Position numbers and translations under genes: made by a program. A model generated the notes under the pieces. It was not told the DNA's origin. It did not search any database and saw only the letters and a program-made list of their open reading frames with translations. A stretch of 64,000 nt of DNA from positions 1 to 64,000 of the forward strand of contig CAMWKG010000003.1 of NCBI GenBank assembly GCA_947174785.1. Direction: 5' to 3'. This DNA is from an uncultured Mollicutes bacterium (lineage in GTDB: Bacteria > Bacillota_I > Bacilli_A > Acholeplasmatales > Anaeroplasmataceae). Position 1 is the stretch's first letter. Each line of letters begins with the position of its first letter. Shown one piece after another: positions 91 to 49,409 of this stretch.

Positions 91-264
91 GTTGCATAAA
101 AATAGTTGATTTCTTGTCTTTTTGCGGACAAAAAAACACTGGTTTTTATTAAATAAATAAAATGTTGGTAACATTTTAAAAAGATTTGCAATATTTAATA
201 AAAATAGTCATTTATCCTCCAAAAATGAGTTTATAAAAAAATTTTAAGTTTTTATATGAAAAAA
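91..264. other. AT-rich intergenic region without a gene
   Basis: This stretch lies between the tRNA terminator and the promoter of the first giant gene. I see no coding potential. Its only clear structure is the dyad at 158-178, listed separately; the rest is A/T-rich spacer. Confidence 0.6.
158..178. promoter_or_regulatory. Perfect 9-bp inverted repeat, possible operator
   Basis: The arms TAAAATGTT and AACATTTTA form a perfect dyad around a 3-bp centre GGT. The centre of the dyad is about 100 bp upstream of the -35 box of the giant gene. It has no following T run, so it is not a typical terminator. A protein-binding operator is the likeliest reading, but I cannot match it to a named regulator family. 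Confidence 0.35.
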
Positions 265-293
265 TTGCATATTTTGAAAAAATATGATATAAT
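265..293 (+). promoter_or_regulatory. Promoter of the 16,336-residue gene
   Basis: A -35 box TTGCAT (265-270) and a perfect -10 box TATAAT (288-293) are 17 bp apart. TG at 285-286 makes this an extended -10 promoter of the main vegetative sigma factor type. Transcription would start near 300 and give a leader of about 100 nucleotides. Confidence 0.75.
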
Positions 294-368
294 AAGCCTG
301 AATTGGAGTAATATAGGCGAAAAATAGGGTTTTATATATAATATAAAAACTTTTCAAGATATGTTTTT

Positions 369-392
369 AAAGCAAAATGTGCTTTGGAGGTG
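369..392 (+). promoter_or_regulatory. Leader hairpin abutting the ribosome binding site of gene 1
   Basis: The ribosome binding site GGAGGTG (386-392) lies 6 bases before the ATG at 399 and fixes the start. Directly before it is a perfect hairpin: AAAGCA (369-374), loop AAATG, TGCTTT (380-385). The stem ends at the base before the Shine-Dalgarno sequence, so it could influence ribosome access or mRNA stability. That role is inference. Confidence 0.55.
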
Positions 393-398
393 TAATTT

Positions 399-3300
399 AT
401 GAGAACAGAAATCATAAACGCAATTTTTAAGAAAGGAAAACGAATATTGTCATTGATGTTTATAGCTACATGCTTCGCTTTGATCTGCAGCTTATTTATC
501 GTTGACAAACAAGGACAGAGTAGTTCTGACATAGAAACTGACTCTTCGGGTAGCAAAAACAATTTGGTGCTTTCTGGAGAATCGGCTAGTCAAGCTGTTC
601 CATTAGCGAATAGACCTACTGATTCTAGCATTGGATATCAGGGCGTTTATTCCATGAGCTACTATGAGGATAAAAATCGTGGTGGAATCATGATAACTCG
701 AATCGTTGTTACAAGCTGGTATGGCGATGGTCTTCGTTCTAATGTCAGGTTATCTATTCCATCTTCATATGCTGGTCAAGCAGTTGTTGGTATTGCTGAT
801 AATTGTTATACCGTAGGACATTGTACTGGTGGTGGATATTATCATGGTTCTCATGATAGTGTTCCTGTTCAAGTAAGTTATCTTAAACTTCCTAGTACAA
901 TCAAATACATCGGTAGTAATTCCTTTGCTGAATCTACAAGTACAGATGGATATAACAGTTACCAAAACGTTAATATTGATTTATCTGCTTGTTCAAAATT
1001 AGAGTACATTGGAAATAATGCATTCTATTCTCCAGGCACAACAAAGAATATCATCGGCTTGCCTGACCAAATGCCTAACTTGACTTATGTAGGCTCAAAT
1101 GCTTTTAGAGAAGCTATTAAGGTTTTCTATGATGATTATGATTTTGCTGTCATTATGCCAAATATTGTAACTGTTGGAGATTATGCTTTCTATGGATGTT
1201 CAACTTTAAAGTTTGTTCAATTTGGTAATAATTTAACCACATTAGGTGTAAGTGCCTTTGAAGGATGTGTAAGAATTGAATCTATTACTCTACCTGTAAG
1301 TATTCACTCTATTGGTAGATATTGCTTTAAGGGTTGTACAATGCTTGCAACTGTAAATGCAGAGTTTACAGATTTCCATGAGGCTGTCTCACAAGGAACC
1401 TTAACAACCTATCAAGAATCTGTGGGTGTGTTTGAAGAGTGTACATCACTTTCTGTTATATCCATTAGTGATGATGTCACTTACATTCCAGATAGAACCT
1501 TCTACGATTGTACCGCTCTTTCTGATTTGAGATTATCTCCAAATGTAACTAAACTTGGTGAATATTCTTTCTATAGTACAAACTTTTTCGAATTTGAACT
1601 ACCAGAACATACTACAGAAGTTGGACAATTTGCATTTGCTAACTGTAAGAGCTTAATTGCATTTGATTTTACAAATGTTGAAACTTTGGGCGCAGGAGTT
1701 TTCTCTGGCTGTCCAGTATTAGAAGAAGTGGTTTTACCAGCAACTCTACAAGAAGTTGGTACACAGTTATTTATCGATTGTGAAAAATTGACAAAGGTAA
1801 CATTCTTATCAGATGTTTTGAATGATAAAATGTTTGAAAATTGTATTTCTTTGACAAGTGTAAAGTTTAAAAATCCAAATGCACTTGCTAAGATTCCTGC
1901 TCGTTGCTTCTATGGTTGTACATCTTTAGCAGAACTAGATGTTATTGATGACAATAAACCAGGATTAGAAGAAATTGGAGAGTATGCATTCTATAAGACT
2001 GCATTCACAAAAATTGAATTAATTAAAAATCAAAATACAATTGGGGATTATGCATTTGCTGAAATGCCTAACTTGACTAGTGTTAAATTAAATGTGGCTA
2101 TGATTTCAGCTCATATGTTTGAAAAATGCCCTGAATTGACTACTTTAGTGATTGGAACAAATGTTGCAAATGGCTCTGGAAAGGATCCAGTCGATACAAC
2201 TGATTGGGCTGTAAAGGATTATGCATTCTATCAATGTCCAAAATTAACTAGTATTGAAATCCATAATGATGTTATCGGTGCTCATATGTTTGATGGATGT
2301 ACAAGTCTTGAAAGAGTTGTAATTCCAGATAGTGTTGATTATGTTGGAATGTATTCTTTTGCAAACTGTACTGAACTTAGTGATGTAACGTTAAATAATG
2401 GCGTTTTAGGAAGCTATATGTTCTACAATGATGAGAATCTTGTTCATATCCAACTTTCAAACAAGTTCAAGTATATTCCAGAATATGCATTCTATGGAAG
2501 CTATTTACTTGATATTGTGATACCTCAAAGCATTATTGGTATAGGAGTATCTGCATTTGAAGCATCTAAGCAATTGACTTCTGTAACGATTTTAAATAAT
2601 TGCATTGGTGAAAGAATGTTTACAGATTGTATTTCATTACCATATGTGGAAATTCCTGCATCTGTTGAACAAGATTTTACTGCTGGTGCAGAGGACAAAG
2701 TTGGAAAATATGCATTCGCAGGTTGTATTGCATTAGCAGAAGTAGATATTCTAAATAATTATATAAGCGAAGGTATGTTTAGTGGATGTACACTTCTTGG
2801 AAATAGCAAACGATATACTTTAGTTATTCCTGAGAGCGTAGAGGATGTTGGTAAATCCGCATTCGGTGCTTGCACTTTTGTGGGTATAGATGGAGTTAAT
2901 AAAACATACTCTGGATGTATTAATCTTCACTTTGTTGACATCGGCAGTAAGAAAATAAGTGAGAGTATGTTCGAAGGCTGCTCTAGTTTGGAAAATGTTA
3001 CTGTAGAAGCAACAGTTGAAACAGTTGATGCTCGTGCTTTTGCAAACTGTACTACTTTATCAACTGTAGTTTTAAATAATACATACACTAGTGCATATAT
3101 GTTTAGCGGTTGTACAAATTTAACTTCCGTAACTTTATCAGAAGAATTTGAGACTATTTCAGCTTATTCCTTTGAGAACTGTATCAATCTAGGTGAATTC
3201 ACCATCGAATCTACTGCATTTAAGGAAATTGGCAATTATGCATTTAAGAATTGTCAATCTTTAGTAGGATTAACTGTACCTTCAACTGCAACAAAAATTG

Positions 3301-6300
3301 GTGAAGGTGCATTCTATGGATGTGCTGATTTATCTGTTTTGACACTACCATATGTAGGTGGAAGAAAAACAGTATCAGGTGCTGCATTAACAGAGGAAGA
3401 TTTATTTGTTTACTTGTTTGGCAAACCTGTTACAACAGACACTGTATATAATGCAGTTAAGGATTCATTCTATTCAGTTACTTCAAAGTGCTCATCTAGT
3501 AAGAGTTATACTGCAAATTTACCTAAGTCTTTGAAAACTGTAAATATTACTGATGAACAAGTTTATGGTTATGGAGCTTTCCAAAACTGTGCTTATATTC
3601 AAAGTATCACAGTTCCTTCATCTGCAGTAGAAATTCAATCTTATGCATTTGAAAATTGTTCTGCATTAAGTTCATTAACAATAGGTGCTAATGTTAGTAA
3701 ATATGGTGATTTTATTGCAAGAAATTGTATCGGCTTAGAGTCTGTGACTATTCACTCTAAGACTATGGGATTAGGAATGTTTGATAGCTGTATTAATTTA
3801 CACTATGTATCAATAGCAAATGTTGAAAATATTCCTGATCGTGCTTTCTACTCTTGTGGTAATAGTAGTAGTTATGATGCTTATGAAGTTCGTTTAGGTA
3901 ATACTAAAACGATAGGTAGCTATGCATTCTATTCCAATAGAAAACTAAATGTCATCACTTTACCAGATAGCATAACAAGCATTGATGAATATGCATTCTA
4001 TAATTGTGAGTTGATTCAATTTATTCAATTCCCATTAGAACTTACAACCTTAGGACAACATGCATTTGAAAAGTGTTATTCATTTGAAAATATCATTTTA
4101 CCAGAAAAACTAACAACAATTTATACAGATGCATTTGTAGAATGTACAAATTTAAAATCTGTTTTATTTGATGGTCATGTTATGGGACCTCATATGTTTA
4201 AGAAATGTACAAGTTTATATTTGGTAAACTTCAACGATATTTCTGTTATTAGGGAATATGGTTTCCAAGGTTGTACAAGTCTTGCTAAATTAGAATTACC
4301 TTCTAATGTGACAACTCTTGAATCTTATGCATTTGATGGTTGTACAAGCTTAACAGAGTTAATTATTCCTTCTACCATTGTTTCTAAGAAAGATAAGGAC
4401 GGAAGAGAAATTGCTGTAGGAGATCATGTATTTTCTAATTGTACAAGTTTGAAGTATGTGAAAATGGAAAATAATGTTCTTGGCACATATATGTTTGAAA
4501 ACGATACTGCTCTAGAACAAATTTATTTAAGTCCAACATTAGTTCGCATTCCAGAATATTGTTTTAATGGTTGTACATCCTTACGCTTCCCTGATATTCC
4601 TGCTTCTATAACAGAAATTGGTTCATTTGCCTTTGCAGGATGTTTATCATTAAGTGAGCTTGTTATTCCTAACACAGTTCAAAGAATGGGAGCTTCCGTA
4701 TTCTACAATGTTAGCCTTACAAAGATTACTTTACCTTTCGTTGGTAATCAAAGAAATGCAACATACAAATATAACATAGGTGGAAGTGGTAATAATACGG
4801 ATTGGAATAACCAATATAGCATATATCATGGATATCCATCTCATATAGGATATATTTTCGGTTCTGGGGATAAACCATATACCATTGGTAATTCTTATTC
4901 TTGTTCAACAAGAGTATTCTATGCCCACTGGGGAAATAATTCTTGTATGACTATGACTGCATATCTTCCTCATAGCTTAAAAGAAGTAGTAGTTACAGAT
5001 GATCCTACGATTACAGGTATGGCCTTCTACGGAGCAAGATTGATTGAAAAATTGACTATTTCTAATGTGACTACATCTATTGAGTCAAGATCATTCTATG
5101 GTATGTATCAGTTAAAAGAACTTACAGTGCCTAGTATATGTAATGGTGGAGATAGTTATTTTGCACATTGGTTCTTATGGATTGATTTCTATGGTAATAC
5201 TTGTTCTTGTACCTCTGCAGATTATTTAAGAGCAATGTGGTATCAAGATGGCAATTATGTTTATTATGTTAATCAAAATAATGCTGTTGGATATGTTCCA
5301 AAAGCATTGAAGAAAATCAACTTCACAAATACTTCAACAGTTATTAATTATGCCTTGTCAGGATTGACAGAACTTGAGGAAGTTAATTTTGCAGATGGTT
5401 TGACTACTATTGGTAATTACGCTTTCTCAAATTCAGGATTAAAGAGCATTACGATACCTTCCACAGTTACCTCTATGGGCGTAAGTATTGTATCTGGAAA
5501 TGCTCGCTTAAAAACTGCTATTATTAATAGTAGTATGATTACAAATGAATCCTTTAAAGGATGTACTACATTGACTGACGTACGAATTAATGGTACTAAT
5601 GTAATTGTAGGAAATAATGTCTTTGAAAATTGTACGGGTTTACGTAGCATAGCATTTGGAAAGAATGTTTTAAGTGTGGGCACTGCAACTTTAGCTGGCT
5701 GTAGCAGCTTAGAATTACTTTCAATAGCTAATCTAGGAATAGAAAGTAATCATAACCTAGCATACTTATTTGGTACAATCGCAGTAACTGGTATGGTATT
5801 AAATACAGGTTTAGATATAAATGATCAAACATTAACAAGATATTTACCTTCTGGTTTATCAGTGAACTTTGTTGGTACAGAAGTTTCTAGCTATGCATTA
5901 AACGGCTTGACTGCTATTTCAGGCTTAAGCATTGAAGAAGGTGTGAATTCAATTGGAGATTATGCATTCGCAAATCTAACAATAGATGAGATTAGATTCC
6001 CTTCTACAGCTAAAGAAATTGGTGAATATGTTTGCTATAATAATGCTGATTTAACAACAGCAATCTTTGGGGAAAAGCTAACCGTTATTCCTGCACATAT
6101 GTTTGAGGAATGTGTTAATTTAGTAAATGTGTTCTTTGAAACAGATATGCAAACTATTACATATGTTTATGTATCTAATAATGTTTATGAGAAATTTATA
6201 GATGGTGTTTCAACCAATAAATTCTATGCTTTGACTACACCAAATCTACAGTTTACAAATGATAGTACAGATTTGACCTTGGCAACTAAAATAAATGGAC

Positions 6301-9300
6301 AATTCTACCTATATAATGAGGAAGATTATAGTTATAAGAGTGTTGGTCCAGATCAGATGCTAGGAACAAATGATGATTTATATGTAACCTTCTTAGATGG
6401 AGATGTTATTCCTTTAAAACTTATCCAAAATGAATTCTATTATGTTTATGGTGATGGAACTTATATTAAAGTTGATTTACAACCAAATGGTGGATATGAA
6501 TTAAGTGCTGGTAGTGTTAGAGTTTGTCTACTTGCTAATGGTACATTAGAAAATGTAATTATGCTGAATGGTAAACCTTATTTGGCAACTTCTAATCCAT
6601 CATTATATAGAGGATATGGTTCTAATACGATTTTAGGAGATTCTAATGATACTTATCTACATTATGGTAGTAGTCAAGATTTCAATACTCCTGATAATAT
6701 AGAAAATGTAATTGAATATAATGGAAAATTATATAAATCATTCTTAAATAATGTTTATCAAGAATTGATTATTACTCCATATAGTCCTGCTTCTGTGGAT
6801 GAAGATGGAAATGATATTCCTGAAATTCCATATAGTGTTTCTTTGGCAGAGCCATTTGGTGCTGGTCCTGATAAGATTATAGGAACTGCAGATGATATTG
6901 TACGTAGGAATGACTATAATGCAGACCATATTATTGTAACAATTGATGATATAAATCGTGGTAAGATTCAAGTTGCATTAGATACTCTATTACCTATATA
7001 TTATAATGCAGAAGATGGTACACACTATTTAGTTACCTATGAAGGCAATTATTTAGGCTATGGTGCTGATGGTTTACTAGGAACTAAAGATGATAAGCTT
7101 TTAGGTGGACCTACAGGAAACATTAAAGAACAGCAGACTACAGAAATTCATATAGATGATCCTGCTCGTCCAACTGTTACATTTGTATCTAAAAATACTT
7201 TAGAAAACAAAATGTACAATACTATTACAGAAATTGGTGAACGTGCATTCTATAATTGTACAAGTTTAGAAGAATTAGAACTATCTGAACGTTTAAAGAC
7301 AATTGAAACAGAAGCATTTAGAAAAGCCGGTTTAACTAGTGTTGTTGTACCAGCAAGTGTTCAAACCTATGGAGAGTATACATTTGCAGAAACAAAGTCA
7401 ATGACTGAAGCGAATGTTAAATCTACTCAAAATGGAGTTTACATGTTCTTTGAAAGCAATATAGAAGATGTAACATTAGCTATTGATACTGCTTATATCG
7501 CCAAAGGAGCATTCAAGAATTGTGTATACTTAAAGACTGTTACATTTGTTACACACTTTATTGAAGAAATCAAGTATAAGCTTCCTTATGGAGAAATTAC
7601 AACTGAAGAATATGATAAGTCTCAGATAGTATCCTATATCCTATTATTCTCTGTATTAAATGGTACAGGATTAGATGGTATAAGTGGTACACTTGATGAC
7701 ACATATACTCAAGATGGAAAAACTTATATTGTTGGTGAGAGCTGTACAATAGGTGGTGGAACTGAAATAGAAGTTGCCATCAATGCTGAGACAGAAGAAA
7801 TTTATAAGGTTTTAGGTGAGAATCTATACATTTTACTTGAACTTGATTATGCAAATAATATAATAAATGAAGTAGGCTCAATTATTTGTGCTGGTCCTTC
7901 ATTAGATATCTTTAATGAAAGTGACAATATTGATGGAATTAATCAAGATTCTGAGGGTAACTATTATTTCGTAATAGATAATGTTAAGCATTATGCAGGA
8001 GCTAACCAAATGCTTGGTACTTCTAATGATAGATTGTATGTTACGATTGGCTCTGAAAATATTGAGGTGACAAGAATTGGAGATGATTATTATTCAATTT
8101 CTCCATTACGTTACACTACAAATGTTTATTATAAGATTGACAATGTTAATTTAACAAAAGAATTAGTTTATGTAAATGAAGACAATCAATATGTTTCAGG
8201 TGTGGTTTACAAAGGCTCATCCTATTATATTAATAATAATGATGGAACTTACTACAATCTTGTTGATGGTTTATTATCAACTAATAATGCTTTAGTTGTA
8301 TTACCAAATGACTTAGAGAAAAATGTATTTAAAACTACAACTGGAAAAATCTTTGAAAAACTAGAATATAGAAATTCTGATAATGAGTTGATTTATGGTA
8401 ATGTTTATAGAGAATGGAAATATGTAAATTCAGCATATAGCTATAAAGATTATTCAGCTGGTCCTTCAAAGGATATTGAAAATGAAGCGGACAATAAAGA
8501 GGCGATTTATTTAGCATCTACTAATAAGTACGTCTTGAGTGTTGAAGGATATAGTGGTTTATATCTAGAAGCTCCAAATGGCTATTTGGGCACTGCAGAT
8601 GATATCTACTATTTAGCTACTCGTGAAATTTCCTTTATCTATGATACATATAGTGAGGTTTGGTACCACGATAATGTAGATAATACATGGACAATCTTAA
8701 CTATTTTAACAGATGATAAGGATTATACTGTTAAAACGGTATGTCTTGGCCCAGACAAATCTTTAAGCTTTGATGCATCTGGAAATATTACTGATTTTGA
8801 TGATCAAGGATATAAAAAGGATAGTTCAGGTCATGATATTATCCTATTAGTTGGTGGAGATGGTCTACATTATCTATATGATCAAAAGGATGGTATTTAC
8901 TATTCTGCAAAAGCAGGCTTATTATCCAATGCTACAAGTGCGTCTATTTCTACAATATCTATTGTTGGATCTACCTCATCTGCATTGATTAACTGTAGTA
9001 ATCCAAACAATTACTTTGATTTAGTGAAATTTAATGGAGCATATTATGTAGATTATGGTGATAATACTTATAGAACAATCAATTATACTGGCTCTGGAGA
9101 AAGAAGAGACCCTAATTTAGGTGCTGATCGTTTTGTGGGTGGTCCTAATGGTCAAATTACACAAGATTCTATAGATAATCCAGTGCTAGTACAAGAAGCT
9201 CCTAACCATTTGATGTATATTGACAATGGTAATGGTAGTTATACTCTTGCTAATCCATCTGGAAAGTTCAATTACAATGGTAGTGTTGGTGTAACTCATA

Positions 9301-12300
9301 TCTATTATCCATTAAATGAAGTCAATACCACAAATACAGTAGTTACAAAGAGTACAAAGAATAACATTTTCTTTGAGTCTCTAGGACATAATGTTTATAA
9401 TGAGTGGACTGTTACAGGAACTAGTGGTAACTATAGTTATACTTCTAGATGGGTTTGTGCCGGCTCAGATTTAAGTCTTGAAACTTCTGATGATATCACA
9501 AACATCGTGTTTGAAGATGGTGTATATCGTTGGTATGAAGTAGTTTCTGGTAGTACTAGAGCTTATCATGGATATGGTTTAGATGGACTACTAGGTACAA
9601 AAGACGATTCTTCCTTTGTTCAAATCAATGGATTAGAAATAGAAATTGTAAAAATTAATAATGAATTATACCATGTAAACGAGGATAATACTTATTCAAA
9701 ATATACTGCAGTAGATGAATCTTCAGCTGTATATACAGAAACTTTGATTTGCTTAGGTGAAGATAAGAAATTTGGAACATCTGATGATCAACCAGCAGTT
9801 TATGGTGAAGATGGTATCCGATACATTGATTTAGAAGATGGTTCTTTCAAAAATGCTGGAACAGATGGATTGTTAGGAACTGCTGATGATGTATTATGTC
9901 ATATTGGTGCAGATGGAAAGATTGGTACATCTGATGACATTATTGATGTGATAAAGGCAGAAGATAACGAATTCTATAAGGAATTAACAAATAATGTTTA
10001 TTATTGGATTAAGAATGGTGTTACAGCAGAATATGTTTCTGCAGGTAAGGACACTATCATTGGAACTACTGATGACCTTAAGGCTGGTTCTTTAGGTGGC
10101 AATGTAATTGCTGTTGTCTTTGATAATAACCAATATTATATTGAATTAAAGTTTAATAATTATTTCTCTTATGGAGAAGATGGAGTACTAGGTACAGCAG
10201 ATGATGTATTATTCTATGCTACTTCCTTAAGTGATTCAAATACTTATAAAGAGATTAAGACTGGTCCAGATGGTAAATATTATACTGCTGATGACTATAT
10301 TATGGTTGATTCAAAGCAAGCAAGATTTGCAGGTGCAGATTATCTTGTTGATTTGACTAATGATTTACTTGCCTATGTTGGTGGTAATCATATGCCATAT
10401 GCATATAATTCTACATTCAATTATTATGAATCATATGAATTAGTAAGTGATGTTTATGTTCTTGATGGTGATAAGTGGTATGTAGCTGCAGATAAGCAAA
10501 TTGGAACTGCTGATGCAGTGCTATTAGAGGAAGTAGTTTACTCTGATCATAGCCACTACTATATCCCACAAGCTGACGGAAGCTATATGACTTATATTTA
10601 TGGTACGAGTGATAAATTAGGTACTGCAAATAATGTTATTGTTTACAAGGGCTTTGATGATGTATTAGGAACATTTGATGATTATTACTATAAGAATGGC
10701 CAATGCTACTTTGCAGGTGCTGATGGTTTAATTGATGGTAATGATTTAGCTGCAGTTCGTGGAGAAGATCAGTTAGCTTACAAGTTAGTTACAAAGGCTG
10801 ATACTACACCAAAAGATTATAATACATATTATCGTTATGATTATTCAAGAAATTATAATACAAGTGTAGATTACTTTGAAACAAGTGGTACAAATAGCAA
10901 AATGATTTCTGCAGGTAATGATGAACTGATTGGAAATGCTGATGATATTGACACTGTATTCGAATGTACTTCAAATGGCGAGTTATATTACTCTACTGGT
11001 ACAACTGGTGTATATATTACTTCTCCAACACATCATTTGGGTGTAAAATTACATAATAAGGTTGTATATGTTGGTTTCGATAATAGCCTAGGAACTGATG
11101 ACGATTATTATATTTCATCTGTTGAAACTTTTGGCGGAACCTTTGCAGGTAAGGATAAGTTATTTGGTACTTCTGATGATTTGATAGCAACAATTGGCGT
11201 TAATCAAAAGCCATATCAAAATCTAGGAGATAATACATACTTCTTGTATGATTTAACTAAGCTTACTGGTAATACTTATGAAACAGTAGGAAATCGTATC
11301 TGTGGTATGGAGGATTGTCGTCCTGGTGATGTTGATGATCAAGAGGTTGAGCTTGGTTCAAATTTACAACCATATCTTTTATATGATGACACTTCATCAA
11401 TCGAATTTGCATATCGTTCAAAGGGAAAAGATGGTTTACTAGGTACTATAGATGATGTAATTGTTTACACTGGAACAAACACACGTCTTGGTGATAAGGA
11501 TGACTATTATTATGTAAATATTGAAGGCTCTGATTATAAGGCATATTCTGGTCCTGATATGATATTCTTTACAGAAGATGATTATTACATTCGTCCAAAA
11601 GAAGTTATTAAGGAAATGGATAATGCTCTTCCAAAGGAAATCAAATATATTTATGAAGAAGCTTTCTATGGTTGTACAAGTCTAAAATCATTTGATTTGT
11701 ATATAGAGGATGATCATTCTACAAATGAAACTCTTGAACTTCTTGGAGATCGTGCATTCTTCGGTTGTACAAGTTTAGAAGAAATTGTGCTTCCGTATAC
11801 TTTAAATGATAAACAAAAGGATTCTTATGGAGAAGCAATTTTTGAAGGCTGTACTTCCTTGAATAAGGTTGTATTTAACGAAGTAGATGAATATCGTGTT
11901 CCTATTATTACAACACGTATGTTCTATGGATGTATTAGTTTGAGCCAAATCTATTATAATTTAGATGGTGTTCTTAGCGATTTAAATGAGCTTCCTGAAA
12001 GAATTGAAATTATTCAAGATGAAGCATTTATGGATACTCGTAGTGATCATGAAGTAGATACTCCTACATATTCAACAAAACTTAAGTTTATCTCTTTACC
12101 TGAAGGCTTAATAACTTTAGGAGATAGAGTATTTAAGAATTCAGATTTAGAGGAAATTGTTATTCTAGATCAAATTGAAGAAGTTGGTGAAGATGTATTT
12201 AAGGATTGTATCTATTTACAAACAGTAGAATATGAGTATGATGATACAAGAGACATTATTATTCCAGAAGGAATGTTTGATGGATGTATTCGTCTATCTG

Positions 12301-15300
12301 AAATTTTCTTTACAAATACAAGCAAAAATCCATATGAATCTTCTGATCCTTGTATTTTCGCAGATAGAGTAGTTGGCATTGAAGCTAAAGCATTTAGAGA
12401 AACTGCAGTTGACAATGTTGTCTTTGGAAATAGACTAACATTCATAGGTGATTATGCATTCTATAATTGTGACAGCTTATCTGCTATAGCACTTCCTGAG
12501 TCTATGAACCCAGATGGCTATGGTGTATATATCTTTGCTGAATCTGAACAACTAGTTTCAGCTGAATTTGGTTATGGTGTAGTCCAAATTCCTGAAGGAA
12601 TCTTTATGAACTGTTCTTCATTATCAGATGTATATTTCTATGATTATGAAGGCAATAAGACTGTAGTTCTAGATTCTATAACAGGTATGCCTACAGAGGT
12701 TATCTTAGGTAATATGGTTACTCCTGTATCTAAGGATAAATTAAAATATCCAGCAGACGAAGAGCCTGTTCTTTTACCTATGAATTATATGGCATCTACT
12801 GTAGAAGTGGTTGGTGCATATGCATTCTATGGTACAGCAATCAATAATATGGTATTTACAGAAGGATTGACTGAATTAGGAACAAGCAGCTTCGCAAAAT
12901 CTGAATTAGAGACAATTACAATCACTAAGAATGTTACTAAGATTTGGGATGGAATATTCGCTGAATGTAAAAATTTGAAGGAAGTTATTTTCCAAAATGA
13001 TGGTTTAGGTAATCAGATGTTTATTGATTGTACAGGTCTTACATCTATCACTTTACCTTATGGTGTAACAGAAATTGGTGAATATGCATTCCAAAATTGT
13101 GAGAATTTAGCTGAGGTAAGTGTACCTACTTCTGTTCAAACGATAAAAGAAGGAGCTTTTGCAAACTGTGTTAAGATTCAAGATTTAACATTACCATTTA
13201 TTGGTAAGGCTCGTGGAACAACAGGTCCAGAAGGCTTATTTGGTTGGATTTTTGGTAAATCATATGAAGAGGCTTTAGATGAGAATGGTGAAGTTGTTTC
13301 TAGAACACAAATCAATCCTGTTAAGCAATATTATGCAGGAGATGTGACAGATGAAAAGAATAATAATTATGAAATTTATTCTATTCCTGACACATTAAGA
13401 ACAATTAAGATTACTGATGAAAGATTAGTAAGCTTTGGTGCATTTATGAACACTTCATTAGATCGTATTGTCTTACCAGATGTAATGGATGATTTGGATA
13501 TGCCTGATGAAGATGATACTGCTAAAGCAAATTATTCTAATGTTTCTCAATTAACATCTATTGGGGATTATGCATTCTATAATTGTCAAGGATTGACAGA
13601 AGCAGAAATTCCTACTCAAATTTTAAATATAGGTAATTATGCATTTGCATATTGTCAGCAAGTTGATACTTTGGCATTACCTAAGCCAATTGTTATTAGT
13701 GAATTAACAAATGAAAAGTTAAAAGCTCAATTACAGAAAGAATATGGTTCAAGAGAAGAAATCTATGGACTTCAAGGTTTAGGAAACTATTCATTCTATC
13801 ATTGTGAATCCTTACCAACAATCACTATTCCTAAAACTGTAATTGGAAATAAGATTGGTTCTTATGTATTTGCACATTGTCATGACTTAGAAGAATTAAT
13901 CTTTGAAAATGATTCTCTAGGAGTTAAGATGTTCTCTAACTGCTATTCCTTAAAGGATATTGTGTTACCAGAACAAATAACTAGAGTAGACTCTGGTACA
14001 TTCGAAGTTTGTACATCTCTACGCTATGTTTATATTCCTAAGAGTGTTACTTATATTGGTCAAGCTGCATTCGACCGTTGTCCAAGTCTTGTGAAGTTAG
14101 TATTACCATTTATTGGTTCTTCAAATGCTACAACTAATACTGAAAAGGCAGAGTCTGTCTTTGGCTGGATTTTTGGTTCTACACCTTTCAATTATGGTGA
14201 TGATCCATTGACAGAAGAAAAAGAAGGAACACCTGCTTCAGCTATTACGCAATACTATAGTGATACTGGTAGATTAACAGTTTATATTCCTAAGACATTA
14301 GAGCAGGTATTTATTACAAACGAAAATATTATTGCATATGGTGCATTTAGTAGTTCATTAGATAGTTCTAAGGCTGTAACGAATACATTAGGTATAGATT
14401 TGATTGTTATATCACATGATTATGTACCTACTAAGGTATTTGCTACTGAGGGTGATCCTTCATTACAAACTGCTATTGTACAAAATGGTATGTATAAATA
14501 CCGTAATGATGTAAGTATTTTAGGTGATGGAACTCCTGCAGAAGAAACATATACTTTAGGTGAAATGTATACATTCTATAATCTATTTGTAGATGAAAAT
14601 ATTTCTAGACTTGGTGCATATGCTTTCTTCAATGAGGATTCTATTGAGCATGCATATTTGAATTTTACAGATATATCTAGTGGTGTGTTTGCATTTGGCG
14701 ATTGTACAAATTTGAAATTTGCATACTTCCCTAATGCAGCTGGTGCGCTTCCATCTCATTTCTTCAGATTCTGTACGAAATTAGAAAGAAGTATTGTACC
14801 TGATGCAATTACTTCTATGGGAAGATATTCTTATAGCTGGTGTCCACGTATTACCTATTTACATATTCCATTTATAGGCTATCAAAACTATAGTGGAGAT
14901 GTTGCAGGAGGATCTAGATATAATGCATCATTCGCATATATCTTTAACGGAAGAGAAATCTATGGTGGTAATGATCCTCAATTCCAAAATATTTATTCTG
15001 ATAACCTAAGTTATTTTGAACGTACTATGTACTATGATGGTAATTGGAGTGGTTGGTATTATACTCCAAGATCCTATGTATTAACATTAACTCAGGATGT
15101 TCATATCGGTTATACTTCTACAGTTCAAACTTATGGTTTAAAGAGACTTTATCTTTCAGATAAATTAGTAACAGTAGGTGTAGAAGCATTTACTTATGCT
15201 ACAAATTTAACTGCAATTGCTATTTGGTCTACTACAGACAATATGAGATATGAAGACTATGATGGTCATGCTCATTTCAATGAAACAAACTTTAGATCAA

Positions 15301-18300
15301 TTGGCGCTAGTGCATTTGGACGTTGTCAAGGCTTAAGTGAAATTTACATTCCAAATTGTGTTACTTATATTGGTAATTCCGCATTTGTTAATACAAGAAT
15401 TAGCAAGCTCGTTGTACCATTCATTGGATTAGAACGTGGTTCTACTGGTGTAAATGCTATTTTAGGTATCTGGTTCTATGATAATGGTTATAACTGGATT
15501 AATGATACATGGTATTGGTCAAATAATATTTTATATGATGGCTTAGGCTTTGGTTCTTGGTCTAGAATGTACTATAATAGTTCAAGCTATTTAGATGCAA
15601 TTATTCCAAATAATTTAGCAACAGTAGTAGTAACTGATGCAGCTACAATTGGAGCAGGTGCATTCTATGATTGTAATAATATTAAAACAATCATCTTACC
15701 ATTTGGTCAGGATGCTCAAGCAGATAATTTAGTTGGTATGCCTGATGAATATTCAGATCCATTAGTATTGATGGGTGATGCATCAGATGATCCAACATTA
15801 GCATGGGGTACAAGACGTTTGACTTCTATTGGTTGGAGAGCGTTCTACCATATGGGCAATTTAAGAACAATTTATATTCCAAACACTGTGGCTTCTATTG
15901 CTGTTGAAGCATTTAGATATGATACAGCATTAACTAAGGCTGTGTTAAATAACAGTATTACTGGAAACTATATGTTTGCAGATTGTACTAACCTTGTTGA
16001 TGTTTCTATAGATAAGGTTGAAGTAATTGAAGATTACTGCTTCTATAACTGTAGTAAGCTTGAGAAGATTAACGACACTGTGATTGATGTTACATTGAAT
16101 AATGGTAATATTGTTCATGCTGGCGCAAACATTTTTGAAGATATTGTAACTTCTATTAATAGTTATGCATTCTATCAATGTTCTAGATTTGCATATCCAT
16201 TAGATCAAGCTTCAGCTGAAAATTCAAGAATCACATATATTGGTGCGTATGCATTCTATAATGATGATCGCTTAGGTGGCTATGAATATGTGACTGAGGA
16301 TGTAGAAGATGAAGATGGAAATACGACTCAAGTATCTAAAGAAACTATACGTCCACTTGATCTATATTTACCTCGTGAATTAGTTACTCTAGGAAATAGT
16401 GCATTTGAATACTCTGATAATATTGTTAAGATTCATAGCTTCAATAAGGTTGTATTTATGAATGGTACTTATACAGTTGATGCTGCTCATCAATTGGCTT
16501 CTGGTGGATATACATTTGCACATATTCCATCATTAGAAGAAGCTTACATTTATGGAGATAACATTAGTAAAACTATTTTCTATGATGATGCTAAGCTTCG
16601 TAAGGTACAAATGGATAATGTTACTGTAATTTCATCTGGTGCATTCTATAATTGTGATAGTTTAGTTGCAATTGAATTAACAGAATATGAAAAGACACAA
16701 GTAATGACAGATGTTAATGGAATAACTCAAACAAGAACAGATATTCCAGCTGGATCAAATATTTTCGAGTATTTTGTAACAGATATTGATTCTTATGCAT
16801 TCTATGACTGTGCACGTTTTATGTATCCATTAGCTAATGAAGAGGCTGCATTAAAGACACTAATAACAAATATTGGTGCATATGCATTCTATAATTGTGA
16901 TCGTCTAGGTGGTACATCTTCAAACACTGTAGATGGAAATACGGTTGAGTCTATTGAACCATTTGAATTATATATGCCTTATAGATTAGTTACTTTAGGC
17001 GCTTCTGCATTTGAAAATTGTAACAACGTGGTTAAGGTTAGAATTTATGAAAATGTAGAAACTGTTGGTGCTAAAGCATTCTATAAGAATACTCAAAATG
17101 AAATGGTAGTCTTCGGATCTGAGGATACTGCAGCTACTCATACACCAACCCTAGGTGCTTCAATTTTCGAAGATAATACAAGCCTTACACAAATTCTTCT
17201 ATATACTACATCAACAGGTGTGGCAATGTTTAAGGGCTGTACATCTTTAGTAAATGCAGATGGTGAGCTAATTAAAACAGACACAATTACTTATATTGCT
17301 GATGAAATGTTTAGTGGTGCTACAAAGCTACAGAATTATAAGATTCCTACAACAGTTCAAACAATTGGTAATTATGCTTTCTTACGCAATAGATCTTTAG
17401 ATAACCGTTTATATGAATATACAATGCTTATTCCAAGTAGTGTAACAAGCATTGGAAACTGGGCATTCTATGAAAACTTCTTAATGCGTCACTTCGTAGT
17501 TGAAGAAGAGCAGACAGAAGATGGAGAAGTTATTGAATCTCTAACTTATATGGGTAGAGGTGTACTTGCTGGATGTAGCAGTTTAGAGGATATGGTTATT
17601 CCTTATATTGGTGAAACAAGTACTAGTGCAAGTGGCAACCAAAGTTCTATGATATGGTATTTTGTAGACCTAGAGACAACAACTTATACATATTTGGATG
17701 CTACAAACTATACAACATGGTTATATAGCGTATCCTTTGGCTGGTGGCATGTTATGGCTCCTTATGCATTAAGAGAGGTAACAGTTACAAGAGCAACTAC
17801 AATTATGCCACATGCATTTAGAGCATTCACTTCTCTAGAAGAAGTTCATCTTCCAGGAACTACTGAAGAATATCCTGTGAATACAGTAACTTCTATTCAA
17901 AATTATGCATTCTATGATTGTTGTTCATTACAAAATCTAATTATACCTGAAAGTGTTACTTCAATTGGACAACAGGCATTCTGGAATTGTTTAACCTTCA
18001 CGGATATTGTTGTTCCAACAGGAGTACAATCTATAGGTCAGCATGCCTTTGGATATTGTTCAAATTTAACAAATTTATCACTACCATTTATTGGTAATAC
18101 AGATGCTTCAACTGGTACAAATGCAACTCTTGATTATATTTTCTATAATGGAGGACGTGCTGCTGGTACACATTCTTATAAATCTGTAGAATTTGCAGAA
18201 GAAGAGAATGGTGATGTTACACGTACTAAAGTAACAAAAACAGTACCTTATGGTGCATTGGTTAGTGTTACTCAATACACATCACTTGGTGTGTCTGATG

Positions 18301-39300: not shown

Positions 39301-42300
39301 CATCAATGAAGAGTCTACATATCAGTTCAACAGAGCATATCTATGATCGTGCATTCTATGAATGTACTGGTATGGAAAAATTAACTTTAACAGAAGATAT
39401 GGATAATCCTGTTCTATATGGAATTGGTGATGAGGCATTTAGATATTGTACTTCCTTAAAGTCAGTAATTATTCCATCTAGTGTAGGTGATGACACAGCT
39501 GAACTTTCATTCACAGGAGATTATGCATTTGCTAATAATACAAGTCTTACATATTTAGAGTTACATAACTATGAATTAAGTAATCATATGTTTGACACGG
39601 CTTCTAGCTTGACCCATATTATGATTCCTGAGTCAATTATTAGAGTTGGAACACATGTATTTGCTAATAGTGGTATTACAGATATTCTATATGAGGATCT
39701 AAGAAATACAGTTATTGGAGAATATATGTTCTACAATAATAATGATTTAGTATCTGTAGAGGTAGCAGCAAATATTACATCTATTGGCTATGGTGCCTTT
39801 GGTGGATGTGCTGCAATTGAAACTATGGGATTACCATTTGTTGGTGCTCATGCTTATAGAGGCGATTCAATTGAAAGCTTATTCGGTTATATCTTTGGAC
39901 ATAATGTAGAAGATGATATGCTACTTGTATATCAAAATCATTCAGACAAGTCTCGTGTAAAGGCAACAGTACGTGATAAGAATTCAAAGTCTGTTGACAT
40001 CTTAAGTGCTTATGGTTTCTATCTACCATTTGGATTAAAGAGTGTTACTCTTCTAAATACAGTAGATATAATTGGCTATGGTGCATTCCAAAACTTAACA
40101 ATGCTTGAAAATGTTACATTCAGTGAATTAGGTGCTACAGCGAAGGTTGGAATTATCCTTTCTCAAATAAAGGATAAGGCATTTAAGAATACAGGATTAT
40201 TATCTGTAATCTTACCTGAAACTGTTGCTGAATTAGGTGCTGAAGCATTTATGAATTGTTATGATCTTGAGACAGTAACCTTTGAAGGTAATGATATTAC
40301 TGAAATTAAGGATTCAACTTTTGAAAACTGTACATCTTTGAAATATTGTGATGGTACAAATGCATTTGTATTACATGATGAGATTACAAGTTTAGGAAAT
40401 AAAGCATTTAAGAATACGGGCTTAGAAACAATTGTGGTTCCAGCAAGTGTAACAACAGTTGGAGAATCTGTATTTGAGCATTGTGTTGATTTAGTATCAG
40501 CAACTATGCTAAATGATGTTAATGGTAAAGCAATGTTTAAGGATTGTATCAGCTTAGATACAGTTGTCTTCCATGATGCTACTACAGTAGATATCATTAG
40601 TGAAGAAATGTTTATGAATTGTGAATCATTAACAGAAATTACAATTCCAGAAACAGTTGAAACAATTGCATCCTATGCATTCTATGGTGCAAGCCTTAAG
40701 ACTCTTGATATTCCAGCAAGTGTTGAGACAATTGATTCTTATGCATTAGGTTATAATGATTTCAAAGAATTAACTATTCCTACAACCGTTAAGAAGATTG
40801 GATATTCTGCATTAACAGGTTGTGGAGATCTATTAAAGCTAAAACTTCCATTCATTGGAACAAATGCTCCAGATACAGATGCTTATAGCACACAATCTGG
40901 TTCAGAGTCTCTATTCGGCTATATCTTTGGTAGAACTCCTTATGATAAGGGTGTTATGGTTCATCAATTCATGGAAAGATATGTTGAGGCTTCTTTAAAT
41001 GACCCAGCTGGTCATACAGAAAGAATTCCATTCTTAAATGAATTTGGCCAAACTCCAACCTATGAGGAAAATGGTTCAACCATTTATGGTGAAACATTCT
41101 ATATTCCAGAGGGATTAGCTAAGATTGAGTTCTTTGATAATTTTGATAAGATAACGAATGGTGCTATGTCTGGCTTAACAACTGTATATGATGTTAAGTT
41201 ACCATATCATATTAAAGAAATTGAAACTGCTGCATTTAGCGGTGGAATCAACTTAAGATATATTGATATGCCAAAACCTGCAATTATCCTTCACGAAGCA
41301 GTATTTGAAAATATGTATGAAAACCCTGCAGAAAACGAAGAGTTCTTCATTACAGCAAGCTATGATGTGAATGGTGATGCATTCCCTGAGGGATGGGTAA
41401 CTGGTAAACAAATTCCTGTTCCTAAGAGATGGCATACTAAGTATATGGTAATCTATGAAGAGTTTGCTGATATCTTTACATATGATTATGATTATGACAA
41501 TAGAACCTTCCGTATCACAGGATATACTGAGAATATGCCTGAACATGTATTAACTCATCGTGAATTAGGTACAGGTAGATTTATCTTACGTATTCCTGAA
41601 ATGAAGAATTTACGTCCTATTGTAGAAATTACGGATGAAGCATTCATCGAATACTCTAAGAACATTCAAGCTTACTATGAAGAATTCAGTAGTAAGTATC
41701 CAAATGATAATATTACACCAGATAAATTCATAATGAATGGTATTATGATTGCAAGAAATGTTTCTAAGATTGGTGATAATATTATTGATGGTAGTTTAGT
41801 TCCTGGATTCCAAGTATTTGTATGTAGATCTTCTGAAACAATTATTACAGATGGCGAAAAAGAATTAGGTATTTCACAAGAAAATAACTATATCGGTGAT
41901 GAAGTACGTTGGATGAAGCAAGGTCTTGTTTACTATGGTGATGGTAAGACATGGACTCTTGGCGATAGAACTGTATTCCAAATCTTATTAAGCTCAACAA
42001 AGATTAGCTTAGATCAAGACTCTTTAGCTGGCTTAGAATATGATGAGGATACTGATGAATACTATATTATCTATGGTGGAGAAGAATTTAAACCAAATCC
42101 TGTAATTGAATTTGATGAAAATAATCCAAATACAGTACGTGTTGGTAATGCAGTGCTTCCAGACTATGCATTAACTACAGCAACTGTATATGGTGACTTC
42201 CGTTCATACTATTGGAACAATGAAAATGTTTCTTATAATGAACAGGGTGAGGTTATCTCTAATGCATGGGTATATGTATTTACTAATAACACAACAATAT

Positions 42301-45300
42301 TTACTAATAAACCAGTAGCTAGTCTAGATGTTGATGCTGACCTATGGTGTTCAGATGTTATGAACTATGATTGGGGCTTTGGATATCTAGAGGATGGTGC
42401 AAAGATTTCCTTCAAGATTATTAGAAGAGAATTGATTGTCAGTGTAACTGATGAGCAAGTCTTTGAAGAAGGAGAAATTTGGGAAAACACTGACTGGTCA
42501 AGCAATAATTCAACTGTTGATATTAGAAACTTTGCTACTGTTGGTGAAGCATTTAATGGTGATATGCGTCTAAATGCTCTTAACCCAACTAAGTCAGAAG
42601 TATTAGTTGATGAAGAAACAGGCGATATTATCGCATACACAGATGCAGAAACTCAATTTACTTGGGGTGAAGCATATACAATCACTAAGGGTGGTATTGA
42701 TATAACAAGTAACTATTATGTTACATTCAATATGAACATAACAATCACTCCTAAGACTGTCATGGTTTCATGGGCAAGAATGAGTACTGAATATGATCAA
42801 AATCATAGATTCAGCTTACCTATTGCTTCAGTAACCTTAAAGGCAGGCTATGACCCTTATGTTCTATGTCCACTTAATGTTGACATTATGCTTCGTGGAG
42901 AAACAATTTACTCCTACATTTGTAATTCAAACTTCTTATCAGCAGAGATTGATTTTGTTTCTTCAGGTAGTTATCTAGTTGTTGCTTCAACTACTTCAAG
43001 AAATTATGTATTAATCAATGAGAAGAATGTCTTCACTATTGAATTAATTACTGTTCCAACACCTATTGTTCAAAATGAATTAATCTTTAATAGATTTAAT
43101 TTCATTGATGTTACTATCAGTAATCTATTTGATTATTATTCTGAAAAGGACTGCATCAATAAGATTGCATATTTAGATGGCAATGTTCCAGAAGAAGAAT
43201 GGGTAGAGAACTTCCGCAATTCAATTTATGAATTTATATTAGGAGACAAGGAAAGAATTGAAGTTGGTGTCTATGTAATTTACGCTAAGCTAAGAGATGA
43301 GAATAATTATCAATGGCGTGACTATCGTTCTCCATTATATAGAGAAGATGTATACGAAATGAAGATTAGAATCGTTGAAGAGCCAGTTAACGTTGACTTG
43401 ACAGGTACTGAATTAATTTATGATCCAACTGTTGATTCATTATCATATCACATTGATGGTGAATATGATGGACACAATGTCGTTCTAGATTTGAAGGTTC
43501 CTAATGTAAAAGGCATGTATACTTATAAGGAATTCTTAAGCATTATAGGAACCATTGATGATGAAGTCCTAGAATTAAGAGAAGATGGAAATTATTATTC
43601 AAGTAATTATCAACTTGTACTAGGTGGTATTCTTCATGTTATCTATCCATCATTAGTTGGTACAACTGTAGCAGATACAACTGGTGCAGAATATGTAAGT
43701 GATGTAGCAATTACTGAAGATGCTGAGATAGAAACAGGTACAATTGTAGATGTTTATGATGCTTCTAAGGCTCATGATATTCAAATTACTACTGGCAATC
43801 CAATAGCAGAAATTCAATTCAGCTTAGATGGTCAGATCTGGACATCTCCAGTTGCAAACGAAGCTACAACAAATTATGGCTTCACAAATGCTGGAACTTA
43901 TAAAGTTTACTTCAAGATTACTTGTCCAAGCTACAAGGATCGTCTTGGTACAATTACTTTACAAATTAAGAGAGCTCAAACTTCTATTGAAATTGAAAAT
44001 AGAGATGAGTTATCTAAGGGCTATGATGGATATAATGTTACACCTGAATATAGTGTAACAGGAAGCAGTAACCAAGCTGTAATTAGCTATCATAAGGAAA
44101 CAACTGCTGGTGATACTTCTGGTTCAGTTGTTTATGATGGAAGATATTATAGTCTAACTGGATATGCTGAAGCAGCAAATGCAGGAAGTTGGTTAGTAAG
44201 AATTGTAGTTACTGGCGATGAAAATTATGAAGGTGCAATTGCATATGCTCCATTTGTAATTGATAGACAGTCACTTCAAATTACAATCAATGAAACTTAT
44301 TCTTACAGCTTATTCAATTTATATACTTATAGTACAACATTCAATATTGGCGAAAAAGAAGCTGTTTATACCTTCACATTTGGTGTAACACCAAATACTG
44401 CTGGAAACACTTATTCATTAGCTGATGAAACATTATTCATTAATTCAGAAGGTCGTACAATCACTTTAGATGACTTAAAGTTGAATATAGAAAACTTCGA
44501 TATTGAATATGATATTACAGTTACTATTGAAAAGTCAGAAGCAGAAATTACGCTTGTATCTAATGATGAGGCAAAGGATAAGGAATACGATGGTAATCCA
44601 TATGTTAATCCAACTGTCAATACAAATGCTGATACTAAACCATCTTATGCATATTATTTAGTAGGCGAAAATGGTGTTAGAGCATTAGCTGATGGTAATC
44701 CAGTTGATGCTGGAAACTATGTATTAGTTGTTTCAGTTGATGAAACTGCAAATACTTTAGCAGCTAGCAAGGAATATGAATTTGCAATTACTCCTAAGCA
44801 GCTATATGTTCAAAGTGGTTCTTTAAGATTAGAATACACAGGCGATATCGTAGTTCCTGAATTTAAGATTACTGGTGATGCTGCAGATCAATATGAAATT
44901 GTATATGAATTTGCAGATGATTATGATGGTAAATCTGTTGGAAAACAAATCGTTTTAATCAATCTAAAAGAAAATGCTACAAATTACATCTTAAATTACT
45001 ATTCAAGAGAATATGAGATTATTGCTACAGATATTAGAATTAAATACACTGAACGTGTTCCTGTAAGTGATAATCCATGGCATAAGGATTTAGAAGATTT
45101 CAATAGTCTATTACCTGAGGGTATGAGCTTTGTTGGATACTTAGAAACACTTAATAGTACTGTTGGTACTTATACAAGAGTTCCTAACCACATTCAAGTA
45201 GTTGATTTTGATATCGTAGATTCATTAGGAAACAGTGTAAAAGATAACTTCAATATTAGTTATTCATTAGCAATTTATATTACTAATCCATTAATTGAAC

Positions 45301-48300
45301 ATGAAGTTAAGGATGCTACACTTGTTGATGGTGTATGGGAGATTTCTGTTCCTTACGATAAAGAATTACATTATGCAATAGTTGAACCTGCTATTGAAGG
45401 AGCAACTGTAAATTATGTAGTTCAAGGTATTAAAACTAAACAACCTGCTTCATATAGAAATGTTGTTGATACAGAAATCACTTATAGCATTACAGCTCCA
45501 AATTATGAAACTACAACTGGTACAATTCACTTTGTAATTTCTAAGGTTCAGCTTGAATTAGAATTCTTAGATGTTGAAGTGGATGAGAATGGAAATCCAA
45601 CAGGTAGAGTATTTGATGGATATAATACACGTTTCGATTATGAGATTACTCCATTTGCGGTACCTTCTACAATTCATTTCTATAGAAATGATATAGAAGT
45701 ATTCAGTGCAATGTCAGTTGGTGTCTACACAGTTGAAATTGTTGTGGCAGACTCATTGAATTACTATGGATTTGTAAGAACATTTGAATATGAAATTTTA
45801 AGAAGTGAAAGACCACTTGCAATTCTTGCAGATTATATTAAGCAACCATATACAGGTAGTCCTGTGGAGAATCCTGCGGTAGTATCTCCTCTTCCAATTA
45901 CAGAAGAGAATGCAACATTCACTTACTATGACGCTGAAGGTAATCTATTACTTGATCGTCCAGTAAATGTTGGTAAGTATACAGTAGTAATATCTGTGGA
46001 TGAAAATGAATACTATGTTGCTACAACTAAGAGTTTCGAATTTGAAATTCTAGAATCAGCATTAATTGTATTCTGGGAGAATGTAGAAAATTATTATTAT
46101 GATGGTCTACAGCATGAGCCAACAGCTTATACAATTGACCTAGATAATAATATCATTCCACTAGAACTTTCTTATGAAGATGGAATTCTACCTATCCTTG
46201 CTGGTAAGTATGTTGCAACTGCAGTACTTCCAGAAGGATATAAGAACTACAAGGTTGTAAATAACACTTGTGAATTCACAATCTTTGCCCGTAATCTAGA
46301 TGTAATTATCTATAATGATTACATATTAGTAGGTGAAGACGATTTCGTTGAAGAGATTGCAGAAGCTAATAATTTAGCTGAAGGTGATCAATTCTATCTA
46401 CAATATCGTTTACCAGCTTATAAGCGTGTTCGTGGTAGTATATATAATGATGCTTCAGACATCTTTGTTGATGAGGTATCTATTATATCTGCTTTAGGTG
46501 ATGTTACTGACTCATACAATATCAGAATCAGTGTACATCTAGAAGTATATCTACCAAGAATTGAATATGAATTCATAGATGCTGAACTTGTTGGTTCTGA
46601 GTATGTATATCACAAGGTATATGATGGAGAGCTTATTTCTCCAGTACTAAATGTAATTACTGAACCAGGTGAGGGTGAGCAACTTGTTAAAGAGTTTGAT
46701 GAAACTCAAGCCTTCGTAGATGCAGGAACTTATACTCTTCCATATCGTATTATGATAGGATATTATGAGGAAGATGGTAGATTTGTTCCTACACATGAAC
46801 CAGTAATTGGTACAGTACGTGTTGTAATTGATCGTGCTGAATATACAATTGTTGTTGAAGAAGAATTATCTAAGCCTTATGATAAGGTTCAGGTATTCCC
46901 AGTAGTTTCTGTAAATGGCATTTTAAGAAGTGATGCATTATTCAACTTCCCATGCTACATTGAATTCTATCAAGATGGTGAAACTCTAATGTCTAACCCT
47001 GTTAATGCAGGAACTTATACAATAGAAATCACAGTTTACACATCTGGAAATTATAAGACAACAAAATATACAGAAGAATTTGAAATCACAAAAGCTGAGA
47101 GCAATATTACCGTAAATAACTATGGTATAACAGTTGGTGAAAAATATGACTTCTCTAAGGTATATGATGGACAGCCAGTTACTCATGCATTGAAGGGTGA
47201 GGATAGCTCTGCAAAGATTCAATATGAAGTTGTTGGTGATGGAAAGGTTCAAGTTCGTTATTATGATGCAAACAAGAAGCCTATTTCAAATCCAGTAAAT
47301 GCAGGTCTATATTATATCCAATTTGAAGTTTCAGAAACTGTAAGCTACAAGGCATTTACTTCTCCAATGTATTCTATCAATATTATTAAAGCATATATCT
47401 TTGTTGGTAATTTTGATGTTCATGAACAGAAGTATTTTGATGGTACTAAATTTGAATTAGATGCATCTATATTTACTATCTTAAAGCAAGAATATATTAA
47501 GCAACAATTAGGTGATACAGGCTTCGAAAATATCGTTGGTGCATCTCTAGTTGAGGATTCAGCTTCTCGCTTTACAATTTCAGGTAAGATTTATACTGCA
47601 TCTGAGCATCCAGGTCAATATGGCTTTGGACCAGATTTCGATGTAAACTATGTAATTATTACAGACATTGAAACAGGTGAAGATGTTTCAGGCAACTATG
47701 AAATCTATGCGTTCTGTGATGTGTTAATTAAGCCAGAACAAGTAGGAGTAACTTGTAAAGATGTTGTAGTAGATTATGATGGTGAGGCTCATACTATTGA
47801 TCCAAGACCAGAAAAGAATATCACTAATTACACAGTTCAATATAGTAAAGATGGTGAATTATATCAATATACACCAATCACTTATACAGATTGTGGTACT
47901 TATACAATCTTCTATAAGATACTATTTGAAGATTATGATGAAGTAGATGGCTCTGCAACCTTAACAATTAATAAGGTAGCTGCTGCTAGAATAGATATTA
48001 TTCAATCCTTATCAGGTGTTTATACTGGATTTGCAGTTCATGAACCATTATATAGTTCTAACACTTTAGGTGATGTAACTTGTACTTGGTATATGCTTGT
48101 TGATGGTGAATATCAAGAAGTAGAATCTGCAATTCATGTTGGTAGCTATAAGGTAAAGGTATCTATGGCAGAAGGTAAAAACTTCTTTGCTGGAGAAGCA
48201 GAAGCAACATTCGAAATCACTCCAAAGAAGGTTTCTATTGGTTGGGTAAACACAGAGTTAACTTATACTGGTACAGCACAACAGCCAATTCCTTACTTCG

Positions 48301-49409: not shown

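Follow-up and report, generated by a model that had tools for sequence, protein, structure and literature searches.

A giant dockerin-terminated leucine-rich repeat protein and its conserved gene block in an uncultured member of the Anaeroplasmataceae

BspA-type leucine-rich repeat (LRR) proteins form a 26-member surface family (TpLRR, LRR_5) in 'Candidatus Mycoplasma girerdii', with lengths of 136-1,481 aa and mostly with a C-terminal transmembrane (TM) segment (PMC4206474). The giant gene described here, ORF1, resembles these in its LRR family and in belonging to a low-GC lineage classed with the mollicutes (PMC4206474), and it differs from them in placing 16,336 aa in one chain with a putative beta-domain stalk and a dockerin. 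In Apilactobacillus kunkeei, which has a 1.5 Mb genome, the consecutive genes Giant1-5 encode proteins of 3,000-8,000 aa made of beta-solenoids, and they have in common with ORF1 the occurrence as consecutive giants, an N-terminal signal, repeats, a conserved C-terminus, and purifying selection (PMC12863079). Neither leucine repeats nor cohesin turned up in a term search of the text of that paper (PMC12863079). Among the giant ORFs of the Omnitrophota, one has nine non-cellulosomal dockerins that have been proposed as adhesins, and the best-known example is unlike ORF1 in its 39,678 aa, its 42 TM helices, and its unrelated lineage (PMC10066038). With such giant surface proteins already described (PMC12863079; PMC10066038; survey PMC11573180), reading ORF1 as a giant secreted adhesin is ordinary in kind. 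In the open-licence literature, we did not find LRR content at such a size described together with a dockerin, an anchor, and an EAL block, and we found nothing on point about LRRs in Anaeroplasma or about cohesins in Mollicutes.

Cellulosomes and anchoring scaffoldins place a dockerin on the secreted partner and a cohesin on the cell-anchored partner. ORF1 and ORF3, which lies two genes downstream, are similar in that the secreted partner has a dockerin and the cell-anchored partner may have a cohesin. They are dissimilar in that no catalytic domain was found by Pfam in ORF1-ORF3, which sets them apart from cellulosome components, in that any cohesin is unrecognised by sequence, and in that the anchor is a membrane anchor rather than an SLH or sortase anchor. 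The Lap system consists of the giant adhesin LapA, the degenerate GGDEF-EAL receptor LapD, and the protease LapG. Here too, a giant (by inference an adhesin) is genetically linked to ORF4, a membrane-tethered protein that combines an EAL domain with a degenerate GGDEF and that the NCBIfam LapD model matches weakly (58.5 of 1020 bits). In contrast to LapD, ORF4 belongs to a different envelope and has no apparent periplasmic output or HAMP part, and its EAL motif residues look intact in its own species.

The window analyzed here, meaning the whole stretch of 64,000 nucleotides, begins at the contig end (G000:C3:1) and comes from a genome of 1.84 Mb in 53 contigs that is 96% complete. An earlier note on this DNA had described one frame running from a clean ribosome binding site to TAG, with an export signal at the N-terminus and a complete dockerin at the C-terminus, and a very large product built mainly from BspA-type LRRs; all of this was borne out. 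The frame is open over 396-49409, its earliest ATG is at 399, a GGAGGT ribosome binding site lies 7 bases upstream of this ATG (386-391, + strand), and the frame ends in TAG. As read from the sequence, ORF1 (399-49409, + strand) is thus a single open frame of 16,336 aa. The remaining five frames over the same DNA hold 1,001-2,282 stops each, which excludes a chance open frame. All along the gene, GC is low at third codon positions (0.16-0.20) and high at first positions (0.41-0.49), a pattern expected when a single gene of 33% GC is coding throughout. The product has a mass of 1,821 kDa (1.82 MDa), a pI of 4.4, and 272 cysteines, and the gene takes up 2.7% of the assembled genome.

A basic N-terminus is followed by a hydrophobic segment at residues 14-38 (438-512, + strand), a predicted export signal by hydropathy scan that is also present in the N-terminally intact ORF1 orthologues. 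From there, Pfam LRR_5 matches span residues ~160-13,640 with two interruptions, so that LRR territory makes up ~72% of the protein and the final ~2,600 residues are non-LRR. LRR block A covers residues ~160-1965 (876-6293, + strand) and the much longer block B covers residues ~3740-13640 (11616-41318, + strand; Pfam LRR_5, PDB relatives, and motif scan), with an additional short LRR piece near residues 2,260-2,400. Both are of the BspA type: whole-piece scores for PF13306 (LRR_5) are 491-1297 bits against a curated cut-off of 27.7, and the closest PDB sequences to the ORF1 LRRs are the solved BspA-type proteins 4fs7, 4gt6, and 4h09. A repeat HMM built from ORF1 itself found 199 LRR units, a rough minimum, with a modal spacing of 23. 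Block B is interrupted by a recurrent insert, PFVG...LFGWIFG...YIPxSLKxVxIT, identified by motif scan. A 1,221-aa BspA-type lipoprotein-like gene further along the same contig (L011, G000:C3:101380-105045) has an insert of the same kind, PFVG...FGAIFG...PQNLKEV, and the insert is therefore a module common to BspA proteins of the group. A weak match of the NCBIfam model for Gli349, the mycoplasma gliding leg protein, to residues 349-437 in segment 399-1998 (38 of 1750 bits) probably reflects shared LRR-like repeats.

Between the LRR blocks, LGTxDD repeats were located by motif scan and by reading the sequence in a first stretch at residues ~1970-2240 (6306-7118, + strand) and a second at residues ~2405-3735 (7611-11603, + strand). 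The second, longer stretch (~1,330 residues) matched no Pfam family or PDB sequence; it is acidic and has collinear counterparts in the G004 and G006 orthologues, and its LGTxDD motifs are possibly calcium-binding. Beyond block B, a tandem row of beta domains of the YDG/MBG type, a putative stalk, occupies residues ~13650-16270 (41346-49208, + strand), with ~18 YDG...xGxY motifs and only sub-threshold Pfam matches, e.g., to MBG_3. A phage origin of the C-terminal region was rejected, with one weak match among 50,697 records. The protein ends in a type I dockerin at residues 16,280-16,331 (49236-49391, + strand; PF00404, 51.1 bits against a cut-off of 22.9, E 3.1e-13), and no other dockerin was found in the genome. 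A Dockerin_1 match above the Pfam cut-off closes each of the five ORF1 proteins that were compared.

The earlier note had also taken the gene to be complete and not an artefact of fusion, and support for this comes from two full-length collinear orthologues, from purifying selection, and from the shortness of the exact repeats. The longest exact direct repeat inside ORF1 is 31 bp, and with no exact repeat longer than this, short-read assembly of the gene is unambiguous. In the G006 orthologue, one exact repeat reaches 777 bp, perhaps through gene conversion or a local fault of assembly. Orthologues at the same locus measure 16,497 aa in G006, 16,204 aa in G004, and 12,479 aa in G005; the G009 copy, truncated because its contig begins within the gene, extends over at least 10,680 aa. 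The frames are stop-free in all four of these other genomes of the genus. When ORF1 was cut into 55 tiles of 300 residues and a match no more than 700 residues away from the corresponding position was counted as syntenic, 54 of 55 tiles were at their syntenic position in G006 and 54 of 55 in G004, which are two independent assemblies; the G005 relative is shorter, and many tiles are non-collinear in it. Likewise, the orthologue gives 54 of the 55 tiles a higher score than any other region of ORF1 does, from which it follows that the repeats expanded before the species split and that the giant size is old within the group. ORF1 and its G009 orthologue share 79% protein identity over ~10,700 aligned codons, and dN/dS, estimated by a simple counting method with dS at ~0.35-0.95, is 0.10-0.36 per 1,000-codon block over the testable two thirds of the gene, i.e., the gene is under purifying selection. 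Since sister species carry this giant in the same gene neighbourhood, ORF1 is a real gene, and it stands as a well-supported megadalton-scale bacterial protein that has been kept giant across species, collinear along 16 kaa, and under selection.

ORF1 is directly followed by a second giant, ORF2 (49859-64000 in the window and on to contig position 67213, + strand), of 5,784 aa with a Pfam LRR_5 block and YDG-type beta domains. The C-terminus of ORF2 resembles half a dockerin by eye, with one dockerin-like loop, and PF00404 does not match it in G000, G006, or G009. ORF3 (2,570 aa) has a signal-like N-terminus, Cadherin-like domains, and a strong C-terminal TM segment with a basic tail. ORF4 (1,004 aa) has a TM segment at 3-37, an EAL domain (182 bits), and a GGDEF match of 18 bits, below the cut-off of 23.8. 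Downstream of ORF4 are two lipoprotein-like genes and then a gene that by eye is isoleucyl-tRNA-synthetase-like. The order ORF1-ORF4 is identical in G004, G005, G006, and G009. The ORF1-ORF2 spacing is 327-450 bases except in G005, where one extra small frame separates the two, and ORF2, ORF3, and ORF4 overlap or are separated by short gaps, an operon-like spacing. Within the genus, this is an accessory block: G001, G003, and G008, each at least 92% complete, are without a match to the C-terminal part of ORF1 and without a close ORF4. Within the bacterium's own family, the EAL motif residues of ORF4 appear intact (GGEILCRW, VNLSR, DDFG, KLD, EGV, and QGY), with G005 deviating partly. Further GGDEF proteins above cut-off are present in the genus, making cyclic-di-GMP signalling plausible there. 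The earlier note did not include the tandem second giant, the gene block and its EAL protein and membrane anchor, the parts of the architecture outside the LRRs, or the lack of a Pfam cohesin partner for the dockerin.

The same gene order recurs across families. In other genera of the order, we found dockerin-ended giants of 4.4-6.2 kaa, in five genomes (G049, G045, G054, G050, and G056) directly followed by a gene of the Cadherin-like, membrane-anchored type. In G049, G045, and G054, this gene begins with a signal-like segment and has a C-terminal TM segment where complete; the Pfam scan covered the G049 and G054 copies, with 14 Cadherin-like stretches, and the G045 copy is cut by a contig end. 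A downstream Cadherin-like anchor was predicted beforehand for G050 and G056 and was present in both (14 and 17 stretches). In G050 and G049, the next gene, which is short, matches both GGDEF and EAL above cut-off, and in G054 and G056 it is weakly EAL-like. The EAL motif residues are mostly lost in these order-level homologues of ORF4, so any cyclic-di-GMP role may be a different one, or missing, in those lineages. The order-level loci continue with three conserved genes (L090 10385-14968; L091 13683-18289), encoding a GGDEF/EAL-like protein, a membrane protein of 498-499 aa with a weak AAA match, and a lysine-rich, probably coiled-coil protein of 581-600 aa; together, the three might form a module for assembly or control.

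No sortase was found in any genome of the genus, and sortase anchoring is thus unavailable to ORF1. All 11 genomes of the genus encode penicillin-binding transpeptidases (PBPs), and all 11 encode Mur ligases; the genus should accordingly not be called wall-less, and these genes argue against reading the bacteria as wall-less Mollicutes.

No match to the Pfam cohesin family (PF00963) was found anywhere in the genome. The candidate partner of the dockerin is the N-terminus of ORF3, in which a cohesin was first suspected on reading the sequence, before any modelling. Sequence methods did not recognise one there, whether Pfam at loose thresholds, a PDB sequence search, or an order-specific cohesin HMM, and an hhalign profile-profile comparison with the cohesins of the order also failed (prob 0.1). 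A joint alignment of ORF3-type N-termini across several families was of too poor quality for use. For the G009 ORF3 N-terminus (L044), an AlphaFold model made from a four-sequence alignment (pLDDT 54) retrieved cohesins in the first eight places of a Foldseek comparison (lowest E 1.4e-4, prob 1.00). The G005 ORF3 N-terminus (L050), folded alone (pLDDT 50), resembles carbohydrate-binding modules with no cohesin match, so poor beta-sandwich models do not automatically yield cohesins. One of the two models thus suggests that the N-terminal module of ORF3 may act as a cohesin. In another genome of the same family, G139 (L081 5704-14678), a TM-anchored protein with two or three Pfam cohesins adjoins a lipoprotein-like gene whose product terminates in a dockerin-like stretch; the two make up a compact, naturally occurring cohesin-dockerin pair that is not part of a cellulosome. 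With cohesins on a TM protein in G139, this type of interaction is available to these bacteria.

We find most plausible, though tentatively, that ORF1 is a conserved secreted giant adhesin whose dockerin is clipped to ORF3 and which ORF4 couples to cyclic-di-GMP. The chain would be exported, its LRR superhelix and inserts would present a long binding surface, and the ~2.6-kaa beta-domain row would serve as a stalk, the whole forming a very long fibre on the cell surface. Adhesion is suggested by domain type only. The C-terminal dockerin would fix ORF1 to ORF3, its likeliest partner, which would expose, from its membrane anchor, a tandem row of Cadherin-like domains and, at the N-terminus, a module that may be cohesin-like. 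ORF4, presumed to be tethered at the inner face of the membrane, with its degenerate GGDEF and its EAL domain, would probably couple display or production to cyclic-di-GMP; dockerin-ORF3 binding and cyclic-di-GMP control are both inferred. The gene block makes the retention of the giant testable, with ORF3 as the candidate anchor, ORF4 as the candidate controller, and the dockerin-ORF3 N-terminus interaction as a defined target.

The strongest alternative, which we nevertheless regard as unlikely, is that ORF1 is retained as a coat or matrix protein and that its dockerin serves self-assembly or folding stability rather than ORF3 binding. The lack of a sequence-recognisable cohesin in the genome speaks for it, but a membrane-anchored Cadherin-like gene lies downstream of the dockerin giant in every locus examined, and the N-terminus of one orthologous ORF3 gave cohesin fold hits. 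It is improbable that the polypeptide is cut into several mature proteins, the 16-kaa chain being a precursor rather than a fibre: the great length of the chain and its division into separate zones of LRRs, LGTxDD repeats, and beta domains could suit processing, but Pfam found no protease domain within the ORF1 frame, and the terminal dockerin would hold the last fragment only. Docking onto cohesins of the cellulosomes or surfaces of fibre-degrading gut neighbours is a poor prospect as well, since the same arrangement is found in order-level relatives of other families and the locus has its own membrane-anchored candidate partner, despite the single dockerin, the lack of a Pfam cohesin in the genome, and a likely gut or rumen setting. 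An assembly artefact or a decaying relic resembling one gene is scarcely credible and was rejected computationally, for although the assembly is a draft in 53 contigs with a contig end 398 bases upstream of the start codon, the repeat lengths, the two independent collinear orthologues, the dN/dS values, and the open frames in four other genomes all speak against it.

Returning to the adhesin reading, its fullest form is one that we consider doubtful: a cyclic-di-GMP-linked display of giant adhesins in a low-GC, sortase-free lineage, in which the dockerin would sit non-covalently on a co-encoded membrane anchor with a divergent cohesin and the membrane-tethered GGDEF-EAL protein would control capture or release from the inner side. 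If true, this would amount to a system that parallels Lap in function, assembled from cohesin and dockerin modules and distributed through an order.

The contig start itself lies within a tRNA gene, of which the 3' part remains (1-45, + strand; Rfam RF00005, 31 bits, 5' end cut off). No riboswitch was found in the 398 bases upstream of ORF1, where this tRNA end stands alone. The G004 contig likewise opens with a tRNA-like translated stretch, 9 kb ahead of its ORF1, and in G006 and G005, too, a contig end lies ~0.2-0.5 kb ahead of the giant gene. A shared upstream repeat or a tRNA/rRNA cluster may break the assemblies at this point.
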